NCBI GenBank assembly: GCA_014896315.1
Contig: JADBKP010000012.1
Location: forward strand, 1 to 46,485
Direction: 5' to 3'
Source of the DNA: Limnochordales bacterium
GTDB lineage: Bacteria; Bacillota; Limnochordia; Limnochordales; DUMU01
DNA length: 46,485 nucleotides
Part shown: positions 9,290 through 42,463 of the stretch, one piece after another
Position numbering within the stretch: position 1 is the stretch's first letter
Layout: each line of letters starts with the position of its first letter
Made by a program: the position numbers and the translations under genes
The notes under the pieces: generated by a model
Databases searched by the model: none
What the model was told of the DNA's origin: nothing
Seen by the model: the letters and a program-made list of their open reading frames with translations, nothing else

Positions 9290-9353
9290 ATATGTCCTCT
9301 CAGCGGTGAATTCTGCTAAAGATGGCGAACCGCAGGGGGGACATATTGTTTTT
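9290..9353 (+). terminator. Long perfect-like hairpin plus T-tract after the citrate synthase gene
   Basis: Positions 9290-9307 pair with 9329-9346 over 18 positions with one A-A mismatch and two G-U pairs; the loop is 21 bases. TGTTTTTAGG follows directly. It is a convincing intrinsic terminator. The next gene starts only 33 bases after the right arm, leaving little room for a separate promoter, so the hairpin may also regulate read-through into that gene. Confidence 0.75.
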
Positions 9354-9378
9354 AGGGGTAAAAGGAGCGAGAGACGGC

Positions 9379-10836
9379 GTGATCCAGACGATGACCACAG
9401 TGGTGGCGTGCTCAGTGGCGCTGCTCCTGATCTTCCTTGGCGGGAGTCCGATAGAGGCTTCAGAGTCCAAGCCAGTCGGTTCCTCTGATTCGGCCCGCAT
9501 CAGGGAGCTGCTCTTCTGCGAACCCGGTCCCACCGTCGACCCAGGCTTTGCCTACTACCAGGGACGTTCACCGGAGAGCATAGCTGAGGAGATAGCGCTA
9601 CGCGGTTACCGAACCGTGCACCTGGTGATAACCAGTGAAAAGAATGTCAACGCGGCGCTGATCGATGCGTTCCACGACGAAGGTATCGCCGTCTGGGGCA
9701 TGGTCTGGGCGGGCGGTACGTACAGCACGGTTGGCTTTCCGCCCGAGTGGGAAGAGTGGCGCCAGCAACTGATCAAGCCGGCAGCTCCGAGCGGCTTCAT
9801 ATACCTTTCTCCGTACCATCCGGATTTCCGGGAATGGAAGAAGCAGTCTCTAGCTGAGCTGGTGCGTACTTATCCGCTGGACGGGATCGAGCTGGTGGAG
9901 GCGTTCTTCCCCAACTGGGAGGGTCTGCGGTCAGGGGTCTACGGCGACATCGGCCCGTACGCCGAAAAAGCCTTCCGGGAGAGATTTGGCGAGGAGCCGC
10001 CCAACTTCACCGACGTGCGCCACCCGCGGTTTTACACGAAGGTTCCTGACCTTTACAAGAAGTGGGTGCAGTTTCGTGTTGACACGGTGACCGAGTGGCT
10101 CGACTATCTGATAAACAGCGAAGGCGGTATCCGGGATGCTCGCCCGGGCATCCCGGTCGCGACCTGGACTCTGGCGACGGACTGGGCGGGAGCCCTGGAG
10201 AAGTCCCGGGTTGATCTGGGTGAGGATACGGCGGCTATCGTATCCCGGGTAAAGCCGGATATCCATTTCTTGCAGACCAACTGGCCGGACTGGATCAAGC
10301 CCGATCTGCCGCCGGATTACATGCGCAAGTACACTCCTTTCATCGAGGAGATTCGCCGGGTAGCACCGGGTATTCCCATCGGGTTGCAGGGTGACATCGG
10401 TTCACTGGAATCGATGCGGCGTGACTGGGACTGGATCGGTCAATTTGCCCGGGCAGCAAAAGAGACAGGATTTTCCACTTATACCATCTACGAGTACCAT
10501 ATAGGCCTCTACATGTATACTGAAGCACCACGAGTGGTAAAGGTAAGGCGGGGAGGTCCGGGTTGGGTCATTCTTTCGTTCAACAAGCGGGTAGACGCAT
10601 GGTCCGCCCGGGATACGAATAACTTTGCCTTGCCTGCCGGCCTCACCGTCGACCAGGTGCTGGTGGATGGGAATCGGGTGATGCTTCACCTGCAGGGGCC
10701 GGCGGAGCTGATAAACGGTGAAGTGAAACTGATGGTGAGCGGTATTGCCGACACTCCCGAGCTGCGGTTGCTCAAGAATTATCCGGCGCTTACCATGCAG
10801 CCGCAAACAATAACCATACCGGCGGTGGGCTCATGA
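9379..10836 (+). CDS. Secreted TIM-barrel glycoside-hydrolase-like protein with C-terminal Ig-like domain; specific function unknown
   Basis: About 485 residues. A signal peptide (hydrophobic TVVACSVALLLIFLGG, probable cleavage near IEASES) points to export. The main domain (about 35-375) alternates helices and strands in a barrel-like pattern: SIAEEIALRGYRTVHLVI, ALIDAFHDEGIAVWGMVWAG, YPLDGIELVEAFFP, GIPVATWTLATDW, PDIHFLQTNWPDW, GIPIGLQGDIGS. This resembles the GHL/family-10-like putative glycosyl hydrolases; glutamates in DGIELVEAF are candidate catalytic residues, unproven. The last 90 residues (VILSFNKRVDAWSARDTNNFAL...) look like an SbsA-type Ig-like domain. The GTG at 9379 is chosen after AAAGGAG; ATG 9391 is possible, and ATG 9322 lies in the terminator loop. 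Its stop overlaps the start of fur by 4 bases, so the two are probably translationally coupled. I do not recognise the exact family. Confidence 0.6.
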   Translation: MIQTMTTVVACSVALLLIFLGGSPIEASESKPVGSSDSARIRELLFCEPGPTVDPGFAYYQGRSPESIAEEIALRGYRTVHLVITSEKNVNAALIDAFHDEGIAVWGMVWAGGTYSTVGFPPEWEEWRQQLIKPAAPSGFIYLSPYHPDFREWKKQSLAELVRTYPLDGIELVEAFFPNWEGLRSGVYGDIGPYAEKAFRERFGEEPPNFTDVRHPRFYTKVPDLYKKWVQFRVDTVTEWLDYLINSEGGIRDARPGIPVATWTLATDWAGALEKSRVDLGEDTAAIVSRVKPDIHFLQTNWPDWIKPDLPPDYMRKYTPFIEEIRRVAPGIPIGLQGDIGSLESMRRDWDWIGQFARAAKETGFSTYTIYEYHIGLYMYTEAPRVVKVRRGGPGWVILSFNKRVDAWSARDTNNFALPAGLTVDQVLVDGNRVMLHLQGPAELINGEVKLMVSGIADTPELRLLKNYPALTMQPQTITIPAVGS

Positions 10837-11373: not shown

Positions 11374-11420
11374 GGGGTAGACAGACTTGCTTGCCAGGCA
11401 AGCTGCGAGTATGTCTCAAA

Positions 11421-11681
11421 GGCGATGAAGAAGAGGAGTAGGCTGGTCAGGGCAGGAAGCGAGGCGGATCCAGCGGGTGCGAGGTCCGCTCTGTCCACCG
11501 GCTGAAGGTCGCTTCGGAGCTGCTGCGGCGAAATCCACCAGGAGAGTAGCGGCAGACGGTAAACCCCGTTACGGTAAGCGAGAGCCTGTCGAGGGCGTTT
11601 GGTATTGGATTGGGTGCCCGACAGGAATACAGGTGGTACCGCGGAAGATGGCCCTCTTTCGTCCTGTAGACGGAAGAGGGC
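11421..11681 (+). promoter_or_regulatory. T-box riboswitch (valine), upstream of valS
   Basis: The leader carries the T-box landmarks in order: an AGTA-like box (GAAGAGGAGTAGG, about 11428-11441), a stem I distal part (GGTGCGAGGTCCGCTC, about 11476-11492), a specifier region CTGAAGGTCGCTTCGGAGC with GTC (valine) at 11508-11510, the T-box proper AGGTGGTACCGCGG (11630-11643) and a terminator hairpin. Uncharged tRNA(Val) is expected to pair with GTC and, through its CCA end, with the antiterminator bulge, allowing transcription into valS. Boundaries of stem I are approximate. Confidence 0.88.
11651..11681 (+). terminator. T-box terminator hairpin
   Basis: GCCCTCTTTCGTC (11651-11663) pairs with GACGGAAGAGGGC (11669-11681), 13 pairs with one G-U, loop CTGTA. 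Only ATCTGTGTTATT follows, so the uridine tract is poor for a T-box terminator. Confidence 0.75.
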
Positions 11682-37902: not shown

Positions 37903-37908
37903 AAGTTA

Positions 37909-37998
37909 GTGCGCCACAACCGCTCGCCTCGGGTTTTATCGGGCAAAGTGCTGTGCAAGGCACACCTCAGGCGGCGAGTCTGGGAGCGAGGTGGAAAG
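37909..37998 (+). promoter_or_regulatory. Structured leader of rplU, candidate L21 autoregulatory leader
   Basis: CTCGCC (37923-37928) can pair with GGCGAG (37973-37978), enclosing a second hairpin GTGC/GCAC (37953-37956 with 37960-37963). The same CTCGC could instead pair with GCGAG close to the Shine-Dalgarno (about 37986-37990), so two exclusive structures are possible. This fits the idea of the Firmicutes L21 leader, but I cannot align it to the known family here. Confidence 0.5.
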
Positions 37999-38358: not shown

Positions 38359-38747
38359 CCCAGGTAGTCCTCTGGCGGTCGGAGGCGGACAATCAGGGGC
38401 GGCGGCACGTGGAGGGATTTGCCGCCCGCGGCCATACCGGCTATGCAAGGGCCGGGTCGGATATCGTCTGTTCTGCTGTTTCCGCACTGACGCAGGGGAC
38501 GCTACTCGGTATCCTACAGGTGGCGGAGGCCAGGGCCCTGCATGGCAGTGATGAGAAGGCCGGAGAGCTGTACTGCCTGCTGGACCCGGGGACAAGCAAG
38601 GCTGCTCGAGAGAAGGCGTGGATACTTCTGGACACGCTAGCTTTGGCTCTAAAAGAGATCGAGCGGCAGTATCCACGGTATTTGCGTGTTGAAGAGCGAG
38701 ACTGGAATGAGTCGGTTTATGCCTCGTGGAGGCAAGAGAAAGGGTGA
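38355..38747 (+). CDS. prp: Ribosomal-processing cysteine protease Prp (YsxB)
   Basis: Cuts the N-terminal leader off ribosomal protein L27. The catalytic pair lies in [21 protein letters not shown]27 and C39, the same 12-residue spacing as in Staphylococcus aureus Prp. At 130 residues it is slightly longer than usual. GTG 38355 overlaps the rplU stop, and the TGA overlaps the rpmA ATG by one base, so all three are translationally coupled. L27 here keeps the cleavable leader, as expected. Confidence 0.93.
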
Positions 38748-39058
38748 TGGCAGTGTTCCGTCTCAATCTGCAGCTTTTTGCCCACAAGAAGGGGCTTGGC
38801 AGCACCCGCAACGGACGCGACAGCGAGTCCAAGCGTCTGGGTGTCAAGAGGTTCGACGGGCAGTTTGTTCTGGCCGGCAACATCCTCGTGCGGCAAAGGG
38901 GTACGCCCATCAAGCCCGGGCGCAATGTTGGCCGTGGCTCGGACGATACTCTGTTTGCACTGGTAGACGGAGTAGTTCGTTTTGAGGGGCCGAAGGGTGC
39001 CCGTCGAGTAAGTGTGGTGCCTGTTTCGGCGGCCGGTGCAGCGGCAGCAGGGGAGTAA
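38747..39058 (+). CDS. rpmA: 50S ribosomal protein L27 with Prp-cleavable leader
   Basis: L27 reaches the peptidyl transferase centre with its N-terminus. The start is [13 protein letters not shown], the Firmicutes leader with the Prp site between F11 and A12 (numbering from ATG 38747); the mature protein then begins [23 protein letters not shown] 38753, giving [10 protein letters not shown], fits the family even better, with AAGGGTGA 6 bases upstream. A Gly/Ala-rich tail of about 15 residues is extra. A terminator follows. Confidence 0.96.
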
Positions 39059-39063
39059 GGATA

Positions 39064-39106
39064 GCCGCGGGCTCTGGCATAAGCAGGACGTCGGTTCTCC
39101 CGCGGC
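39064..39106. repeat. Inverted repeat between rpmA and its terminator
   Basis: GCCGCGGG (39064-39071) and CCCGCGGC (39099-39106) are perfect 8-base arms around 27 bases. No T-tract follows. It may be a 3' mRNA stabiliser upstream of the real terminator. Confidence 0.4.
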
Positions 39107-39129
39107 AGGAGGGTTAGCTGGATAAGGAG

Positions 39130-39176
39130 AAAACGGCCGACCTGGCGGTGGTGACCGCGGGCCGGTCGTTTTTCTT
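39130..39176 (+). terminator. Intrinsic terminator of the rplU-prp-rpmA operon
   Basis: AAAACGGCCG (39130-39139) pairs with CGGTCGTTTT (39163-39172) with one G-U pair; the interior folds as CGGT/ACCG. TTTTTCTTC overlaps and follows the right arm. It isolates the ribosomal genes from the next gene. Confidence 0.85.
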
Positions 39177-39230
39177 CATAACGAAGAGCCGGGGGCGGAG
39201 GGTCACGCCTACGACCAGGTAGGGAGGGAG

Positions 39231-40976
39231 ATGAGGATGTGGCGCAGCCGGGTGCTTGTCGCCAGGTGGCTCGTGGTCCTTGCCGCAGTCATCTGCGTCT
39301 GGGCCGTTCCGGGCTGGGCGGCCCCGGTGCAGAAGGAGATCCCCCGTGTCGAGTTGATGCCGGACGCACCCGCAACCTATGTGATGCGGGACTGGCGGCA
39401 GGTGGCACGCGATTACGACTCCCTGGTTTTTGACTTTACCGCCGTCGGGGAGTATCTGCCTCTGATCCAGTGGGATAAGAGCCGCCGGAACTTCGACCTG
39501 GATACGTTTTTCCTCCCAAGCTACGTGGGAGATTACCGCCAAGGGCCCGGGAGCCAGGAGGCCATCAACGTGCTGGCTGCCCTACTCGGAGCGACGCTGG
39601 TCGGGATCGACAAGAGCAACCAGCAGGGGTACAACTGGGTCCTTATGGCCAGCCAGTTCTTCAACCCTGGCGACTCGCAGCGTGTCGTGTTAAACAACAT
39701 CGGGGGCCGGTCAGGAAGCAGCTTCTGGTACGAGATCTATCCGGCCATCCTCTTCTTCGCCCTGGTGGATAAATACCCCAAGGTAGCGGGGATAGAGCTG
39801 CCCTTAAGCTGGGGTGAAGGTGGCCTGAGCATGCGGGATATGATGTACGAGACGGCAGATAGATACTGCCTGGCGGTGGCAAAGCTGGTGGGCCGCGATG
39901 GCCGGCCCGATTTTGAGTATACGGCCTTTGATTTTGCCAGGGGCGAGCCAGTGTGGAACGGACGCTGGACCGAGCCGGACGCGGCGGCCGGTATTGCCTG
40001 GCTCGAGTACATGGCCTACGTGACCTTCGGTGAAGACCGTTTTTTGCAGGCAGCGGAACAAGCGCTGGAGTACCTGGAGTCGCTCGATATTAACCCGTTC
40101 TACGAAGTTTTGCTGCCGTATGGCGCCTATCTCGCCGCCCGACTCAACGCTGAGCTGGGGCGGGAATACAATCTGGAGAAGCTGCTCAACTGGTGCTTTG
40201 GACCTTCGTACGCGCGTCCGGGATGGGGAGTGATTACCGGCAAATGGGGACGCTATGCCGTCGACGGCCTGGTGGGCAGCCTGACCGACGGCGGCGGTTA
40301 CGCCTTTGCCATGAACACCTTCCAGATGGCAGCGGCTCTGGTACCCATTGCCCGCTATGATCCCCGCTATGCCCGGGCACTTGGTAAGTGGATCCTCAAT
40401 CTGGCCACGAATGCCCGCCTCTTCTACCCCAGGTATCTGCCCCGGCAGAACCAGTCCAGCGACGATTGGTCGGAGGCAGTGCGTAACGTGGTTGCTTACG
40501 AGGGGCTGCGCAAGGAGTGGGCGGGTATAACTCCCTACGCGGCTGGCGATGCGCGGCGGTCCGGTTGGGCGGCCACCGATTTTGCCCTGTACGGCAGCTC
40601 CCATGTGGGGATGCTGGGCGCAATAGTGGCCACGACCAATGTGGAGAAGATTCTGCAGCTCGATCTACTGGCCACCGACTTCTTCCATGCGCCGGCCTAT
40701 CCGACCTACCTCTACTACAACCCGTATCCGGAGGCGAAGGCGGTCTTGATCGACGTGGGCGAGGGCGCGTACGACCTGTACGATGCCGTCGGCAAGGAGT
40801 TTGTCGCCCGGGCCGTAACAGGGAAGGCAAGCTTTGTTCTTCCCGGCCGTTCGGCAGCCGTCATAGTGGTGGCCCCAGCAGGAGGGCAGATCAGCACGGA
40901 TGGCAATAAGTTGCTGGTGAACGGAGTGCTTGTTGACTACCAGCGAGATAACCTACTCCCAGCTGCAGATAAGTGA
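39231..40976 (+). CDS. Secreted protein with alpha/alpha-toroid-like fold, function unknown
   Basis: 581 residues. A clear signal peptide (basic start, ARWLVVLAAVICVWAVPGWA, cleavage probably before APVQ) indicates export. The body is helix-rich with regularly spaced Trp/Tyr-rich segments, for example GIAWLEYMAYVTFGEDRF, LLPYGAYLAARLNAELGR, NTFQMAAALVPIARYDPRY and ALGKWILNLATNARLFYPRY, which suggests a six-hairpin (alpha/alpha) barrel as in several glycosidases and lyases. The last 100 residues look like a beta domain (GKASFVLPGRSAAVIVVAPAGG). I do not recognise the family and see no catalytic signature. GGGAGG precedes two starts, ATG 39231 and ATG 39237; spacing favours 39237. It interrupts the normally adjacent rpmA-obgE pair, separated from rpmA by a terminator; no clear promoter is visible. 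Confidence 0.6.
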   Translation: MRMWRSRVLVARWLVVLAAVICVWAVPGWAAPVQKEIPRVELMPDAPATYVMRDWRQVARDYDSLVFDFTAVGEYLPLIQWDKSRRNFDLDTFFLPSYVGDYRQGPGSQEAINVLAALLGATLVGIDKSNQQGYNWVLMASQFFNPGDSQRVVLNNIGGRSGSSFWYEIYPAILFFALVDKYPKVAGIELPLSWGEGGLSMRDMMYETADRYCLAVAKLVGRDGRPDFEYTAFDFARGEPVWNGRWTEPDAAAGIAWLEYMAYVTFGEDRFLQAAEQALEYLESLDINPFYEVLLPYGAYLAARLNAELGREYNLEKLLNWCFGPSYARPGWGVITGKWGRYAVDGLVGSLTDGGGYAFAMNTFQMAAALVPIARYDPRYARALGKWILNLATNARLFYPRYLPRQNQSSDDWSEAVRNVVAYEGLRKEWAGITPYAAGDARRSGWAATDFALYGSSHVGMLGAIVATTNVEKILQLDLLATDFFHAPAYPTYLYYNPYPEAKAVLIDVGEGAYDLYDAVGKEFVARAVTGKASFVLPGRSAAVIVVAPAGGQISTDGNKLLVNGVLVDYQRDNLLPAADK

Positions 40977-41068
40977 GTATGGCGTCCAGGGAGATGAAGG
41001 GAGGAAGCGGTTGTCCGTGCCCGCGGCGTCGGGGCCTGCAGGGTGCCGGCGGACAGCCGCGCAGGTGA

Positions 41069-42463
<1,395 letters not shown>

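Follow-up and report, generated by a model that had tools for sequence, protein, structure and literature searches.

Endo-beta-1,2-glucanases of the GH144 type are (alpha/alpha)6 enzymes that feed an ABC transporter and a phosphorylase, and enzymes of GH127 employ a catalytic cysteine mechanism. For mannose chains, beta-1,2-mannan is found in the cell walls of Candida (PMC4599007) and as the reserve mannogen of Leishmania, in which the MPT family comprises beta-1,2-mannan phosphorylases of GT108 (PMC8950772). In Thermoanaerobacter, import of 1,2-beta-oligomannan followed by its phosphorolysis has been proposed, and according to the same study the genus had no identified potential source of 1,2-beta-oligomannan (PMC4264767). 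No endo-beta-1,2-mannanase is named in the excerpts of the beta-1,2-mannosidase and phosphorylase literature that we examined (including PMC8950772, PMC4264767 and PMC4599007), and the records found for Limnochordia and mannan appeared to be unrelated matches. In this paper, we report a computational analysis of the fold, gene neighbourhoods and relocation of a gene that represents an unnamed family of predicted glycan-active proteins.

The window (the whole stretch of DNA analysed, i.e. 46,485 nucleotides of contig JADBKP010000012.1 from a Limnochordales bacterium) carries an open reading frame of 581 amino acids on its forward strand, between rpmA and obgE (Table 1). A preliminary description had recorded an exported protein of this length and place and did not recognise its family; the reading frame, a signal peptide seen by eye and the absence of matches in the Pfam, NCBIfam and PDB libraries all agree with that account. 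From their sequences, we take the genes on the 5' side to be rplU, prp and rpmA (the last from the L27 sequence) and those on the 3' side to be obgE, proB and proA. The ATG start codon is preceded by the purine-rich GGGAGGGAG, and the encoded N-terminus has a hydrophobic helix and an A-x-A-like site near residues 28-31 (by eye), as in a Sec-type signal. The reading frame is considered a real gene because its orthologue in a genome of the same genus (G001) is 79% identical in protein and 75% identical over 1.6 kb of DNA. The genome holds one copy of the gene, and promoter scans were empty, with no sigma-70-like promoter found for the reading frame.

Table 1. Features of the rpmA-obgE region, in window coordinates
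Feature	Position	Strand	Basis
rpmA (presumed ribosomal protein L27), upstream neighbour	38747..39058	+	ATG at 38747, stop at 39058; orthologues adjoin obgE in 17/17 genomes
Short inverted repeat, 8-bp arms 39064-39071 / 39099-39106	39064..39106	+	Fold z -1.95; marginal
Intrinsic terminator, probably of the rplU-prp-rpmA operon	39126..39178	+	Fold z about -5; terminator scan; comparable hairpin in the sister genome
Gene for exported (alpha/alpha)6-barrel protein, unnamed family, predicted glycan-active enzyme	39231..40976	+	ORF, homologues, AlphaFold2 model, fold search
Predicted signal peptide, residues 1-31	39231..39323	+	By eye; N-terminal helix in the AlphaFold2 model, then low pLDDT
Predicted (alpha/alpha)6 barrel, residues about 45-490	39363..40700	+	AlphaFold2 model and fold search
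Predicted C-terminal beta domain, residues about 490-570	40698..40940	+	Strands in the model, pLDDT mostly >90
obgE, downstream neighbour	41069..42463	+	GTG start at 41069; orthologues in 18/18 genomes

Elsewhere in the window, Rfam searches detected a ribosomal L21 leader 5' of rplU (37908-37991, forward strand) and a T-box leader 5' of a valyl-tRNA synthetase-like ORF (11416-11669, forward strand). A second exported barrel protein that had been remarked upon (9322-10836, forward strand) gave one weak Pfam match, to GHL10 (PF02638), with an E value of 7.9e-6 and 25.6 bits, below the cut-off of 27.9. At loci L046 and L048 (G007 and G004), the gap between prp and rpmA measured about 515-530 bases, which would be enough for one further small gene.

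The gene had also been described as preceded by an inverted repeat and a strong terminator. The terminator was upheld, as the hairpin with its T-run has a predicted energy of -31.9 kcal/mol and 0 of 200 shuffled sequences were equally stable; the repeat proved marginal, with 8 of 200 shuffles reaching the same stability. A hairpin and T-run, missed by a stricter scan, also occur in the rpmA-obgE gap of G001, hence the terminator is probably part of the rpmA operon and probably older than the arrival of the 581-residue gene. The 92 bases that separate this gene from obgE showed no terminator-like site, so that co-transcription of the two is possible.

Orthologues of obgE were found in all 18 genomes searched and, with the window's own genome left out, the rpmA-obgE gap was compared in 17. 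It measured 69-246 bases in every one of these, against 2010 bases in the window's genome, so the insertion is peculiar to the window's species and is not an arrangement common in the lineage. The possible co-transcription with obgE could speak for a functional placement that co-regulates the gene with ribosome assembly. We consider this highly improbable, since none of the 17 relatives carries the gene there, the same-genus orthologue is located elsewhere and a terminator separates the gene from rpmA. Any significance of the housekeeping setting remarked on in the preliminary description found no support, and comparison with the sister genome points instead to one recent relocation. The G001 orthologue, placed as sister in the tree at 100/99 support, is found on a different contig, where genes for a LacI-type regulator and solute-binding proteins follow it directly. 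In the window's genome these same genes are on contig C14 at 277-281 kb, where no trace of the family gene was found. As the sister keeps the gene at this sugar locus and the window's genome has the locus without it, the gene appears to have moved, and a single recent relocation into the rpmA-obgE gap is the simplest reading; the location beside obgE is then probably incidental, a chance event in one lineage. A search of the edges for long direct repeats yielded none and showed only a weak 16-nt inverted pair (81%). An assembly error may possibly underlie the placement, but it would require two erroneous joins. Horizontal gain from outside was rejected on the grouping with the same-genus copy (100/99), on an identity (79%) like that of rpmA (79%) and proB (80%), and on the fitting G+C content.

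Pfam and NCBIfam returned no family for the 581-residue protein at E ≤ 10, and a PDB sequence search returned nothing above chance. The same was true of a family profile and of nine members searched against the three libraries, the Pfam matches of the nine being at chance level only (PRY 0.13, T2SSN 0.22). Homologues were detected in 7 of 60 relatives, in 9 of 72 genomes of the class and, with the window's own genome counted, in 4 of 398 genomes sampled across the phylum. The family also extends to Armatimonadota, where 29 of 291 genomes have it (the phylum searched being that of L017, an Armatimonadetes MAG), and to MAGs of Planctomycetota, Aerophobetes and Halanaerobiaceae; a search of the class of the Halanaerobiaceae member L013 gave 1 of 59 genomes and gained no new one. 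No relative was found in viral contigs. Eight residues (E110, D127, E292, R329, E424, R427, D440 and D518) are invariant in all 19 aligned full-length members.

Most members begin with a signal peptide (judged by eye). Those without one are L016, L019 and one of the two G038 copies, in which the upstream gene is too near to conceal it. The two G038 copies (L014 913-8349 / L079 9446-16882) flank DUF1861, GH130 and GDSL lipase genes and, with the signal peptide present on one and absent from the other, are possibly an outside/inside pair. An in-frame TAG divides the G045 gene (L006 1498-3513) into two ORFs, which points to either a pseudogene or a sequencing error.

AlphaFold2 was run on nine sequences and gave five models with pLDDT values from 64.8 to 85.5, the best having a pTM of 0.88. 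A structure prediction and fold search for an (alpha/alpha)6 barrel had been suggested at the outset, and the barrel was found: in the predicted model, residues of about 45-490 superpose on solved glycoside hydrolase structures. The initial guess of a carbohydrate enzyme of this type is in line with the predicted fold and with the sugar-operon contexts of relatives, and the label "helix-rich" suits the barrel but not the C-terminal domain, which is beta in the model. Among the 50 VIA-align matches listed (Z 21.5 to 16.6), GH76 mannanases stand at the top, followed by GH88 unsaturated glucuronyl hydrolase (Z 19.6; PDB titles name D115 and D175 mutants) and others. Foldseek placed GH127/GH146 arabinofuranosidases first (best E 2.2e-6, TM about 0.35). 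The modelled fold is thus that of many glycoside hydrolases; drimenyl diphosphate synthase, which is terpene cyclase-like, was also matched (VIA Z 16.9), and the common fold therefore does not settle the function.

Two readings without hydrolysis were weighed on this evidence. The fold matches include AGE-type epimerases and a mannose isomerase, and some signal-less members adjoin a cytoplasmic GH130, as would suit an AGE-like epimerase, an isomerase or some other sugar enzyme of this barrel type that does not hydrolyse its substrate. We nevertheless regard such an activity as very unlikely, given that most members look exported (from their N-termini, by eye), that a C-terminal beta domain is predicted in them and that GH76 and GH88 give higher VIA Z scores than the AGE enzymes. 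A polysaccharide lyase or a non-catalytic glycan-binding barrel seems scarcely probable: helical barrels are common to other glycan-acting proteins, but the invariant E110, D127, E292, E424 and D440 look catalytic in the alignment, GH130 handles neutral mannosides and no lyase is among the fold matches listed.

The gene neighbourhoods point to mannosides. GH130 (Pfam) adjoins the family gene in L014, L016, L019 and L007, and DUF1861 (Pfam) adjoins it in L013 and L014. Leishmania MPT structures (E 2e-58 to 4e-48) are among the matches of the L013 DUF1861 neighbour, as is 2b4w, a Leishmania-like hypothetical protein (E 9e-61); from the match to the MPT structures, DUF1861 would correspond to GT108. 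For the GH130 neighbours of L014, L016 and G233, the best PDB match is a beta-1,2-mannobiose or 1,2-beta-oligomannan phosphorylase. In G233 and G305, which belong to one genus and are hence not independent, one strand carries genes for LacI, GH130, a GT108-like protein and two successive sets of a solute-binding protein with permeases; these are followed by a gene for a small protein, the family gene and one for a PGM/PMM mutase. Several of these names are presumed from the sequence.

Eight of 17 genomes (G038, G050, G056, G233, G305 and those of L013, L016 and L019) have a GH130 and/or GT108-like gene on the contig of the family gene and no more than 16 kb from it, against about 0.6 expected, a rough figure for which copy numbers were entered by hand and partly assumed. 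The other nine genomes of this first set are without GH130 nearby, with short contigs or contig ends limiting the view in G046, G068, G069 and G090. In a second set, consisting of 20 of the 29 family-bearing Armatimonadota genomes (one of them, G457, also counts in the first set, under L017), six have a same-strand GH130-like gene immediately upstream and 14 have no GH130 nearby; three of the six (L137, L138 and L139) have what we presume from the sequence to be solute-binding and permease-like genes downstream. The only GH130 of the window's genome is on contig C17, with Lin0857 as the best PDB match and Uhgb_MS, a mannoside synthase solved with 1,2-beta-mannoside, as the next. Both here and in G001, GH130 is on a contig other than that of the family gene and DUF1861 is absent, so that the link to mannosides is made through relatives only. 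Across the class, GH130 is present in 44 of 72 genomes, namely in 9/9 carriers of the family and 35/63 others (Fisher p 0.008, uncorrected for phylogeny); as GH130 is this common, co-occurrence by itself lends weak support.

Some loci also carry GH127 (G056 and G045), a sulfatase (G045) or DUF5696, and the substrate may therefore vary or differ. A glycoside hydrolase that shares this fold but acts on another glycan, e.g. an arabinofuranoside-, glucoside- or uronide-containing polymer of which the GH130 neighbours merely finish one component, is a possibility that we hold to be the minor one. It would account for the GH127 and sulfatase neighbours, for the GH127/GH146 structures being the best Foldseek matches and for the absence of GH130 near more than half of the loci. 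On the other side, the enzyme that recurs most often as a neighbour is GH130, profile comparison with a GH127 neighbour showed no similarity, and no cysteine is invariant in the 19 members, so the cysteine mechanism of GH127 is not available to the family. DUF5696 (PF18952) recurs in the same ABC-transporter loci (L074 11338-14001 and L079 3148-6153).

Our preferred reading, in which we place middling confidence, is that of an unnamed (alpha/alpha)6-barrel family that cleaves glycans, most likely as glycoside hydrolases working with the GH130/GT108 mannoside phosphorylases. We infer the hydrolytic chemistry, the mannoside substrate and the catalytic residues as follows. The exported form would cut an extracellular beta-linked, perhaps beta-1,2-linked, mannan or mannoside, with catalysis by two acids from among the five invariant Glu and Asp residues E110, D127, E292, E424 and D440. 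An ABC transporter would import the resulting oligosaccharides, which GH130 (and GT108 where present) would phosphorolyse to mannose 1-phosphate for a phosphomannomutase to channel into glycolysis, and the signal-less members would act in the cytoplasm on imported oligosaccharides. In the window's species, the gene would have moved from an ancestral locus for sugar utilisation to a site 3' of the rpmA terminator, and it may now be transcribed together with obgE. The family may thereby supply a missing step in the breakdown of mannose chains. The narrower proposal of a depolymerase dedicated to beta-1,2-mannan, supplying GH130/GT108 with oligomers, and with it a new multi-phylum glycoside hydrolase family, is doubtful and offered tentatively. 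With a predicted glycosidase fold, a clear set of invariant acids and genes placed beside such phosphorylases in several phyla, the question of the oligosaccharide source becomes assayable.

Compared with described systems, the GH130 and GT108 mannoside phosphorylases are partners of the family in its neighbourhoods and not its homologues, having a five-bladed propeller (PMC8950772) unlike the barrel predicted here. The GH76 alpha-1,6-mannanases share the (alpha/alpha)6 barrel (4v1s, Z 21.5, rmsd 4.1 over 325 residues), but identity is about 10%, the family has no Pfam match and has an extra C-terminal beta domain, and its gene context is one of beta-mannosides, not of alpha-mannan. Membership in GH76 was rejected because the adjacent catalytic Asp pair (D136/D137 and D163/D164 in PDB titles) is not conserved in the sequences of the 19 members. 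The GH127/GH146 beta-L-arabinofuranosidases resemble the family in giving the best Foldseek E-values, in aligning over most of the length and in the order of barrel then beta domain. They differ in the low TM score, in the lack of profile similarity (hhalign probability 0.3 to a GH127 neighbour) and in their cysteine, the PDB title of 8qf2 calling its inhibitors cysteine-directed; with no cysteine invariant or nearly invariant in the 19 members, this assignment was also rejected. The GH144-type endo-beta-1,2-glucanases offer an analogy only, in which the expected sugar of the family is mannose and that of GH144 is glucose.
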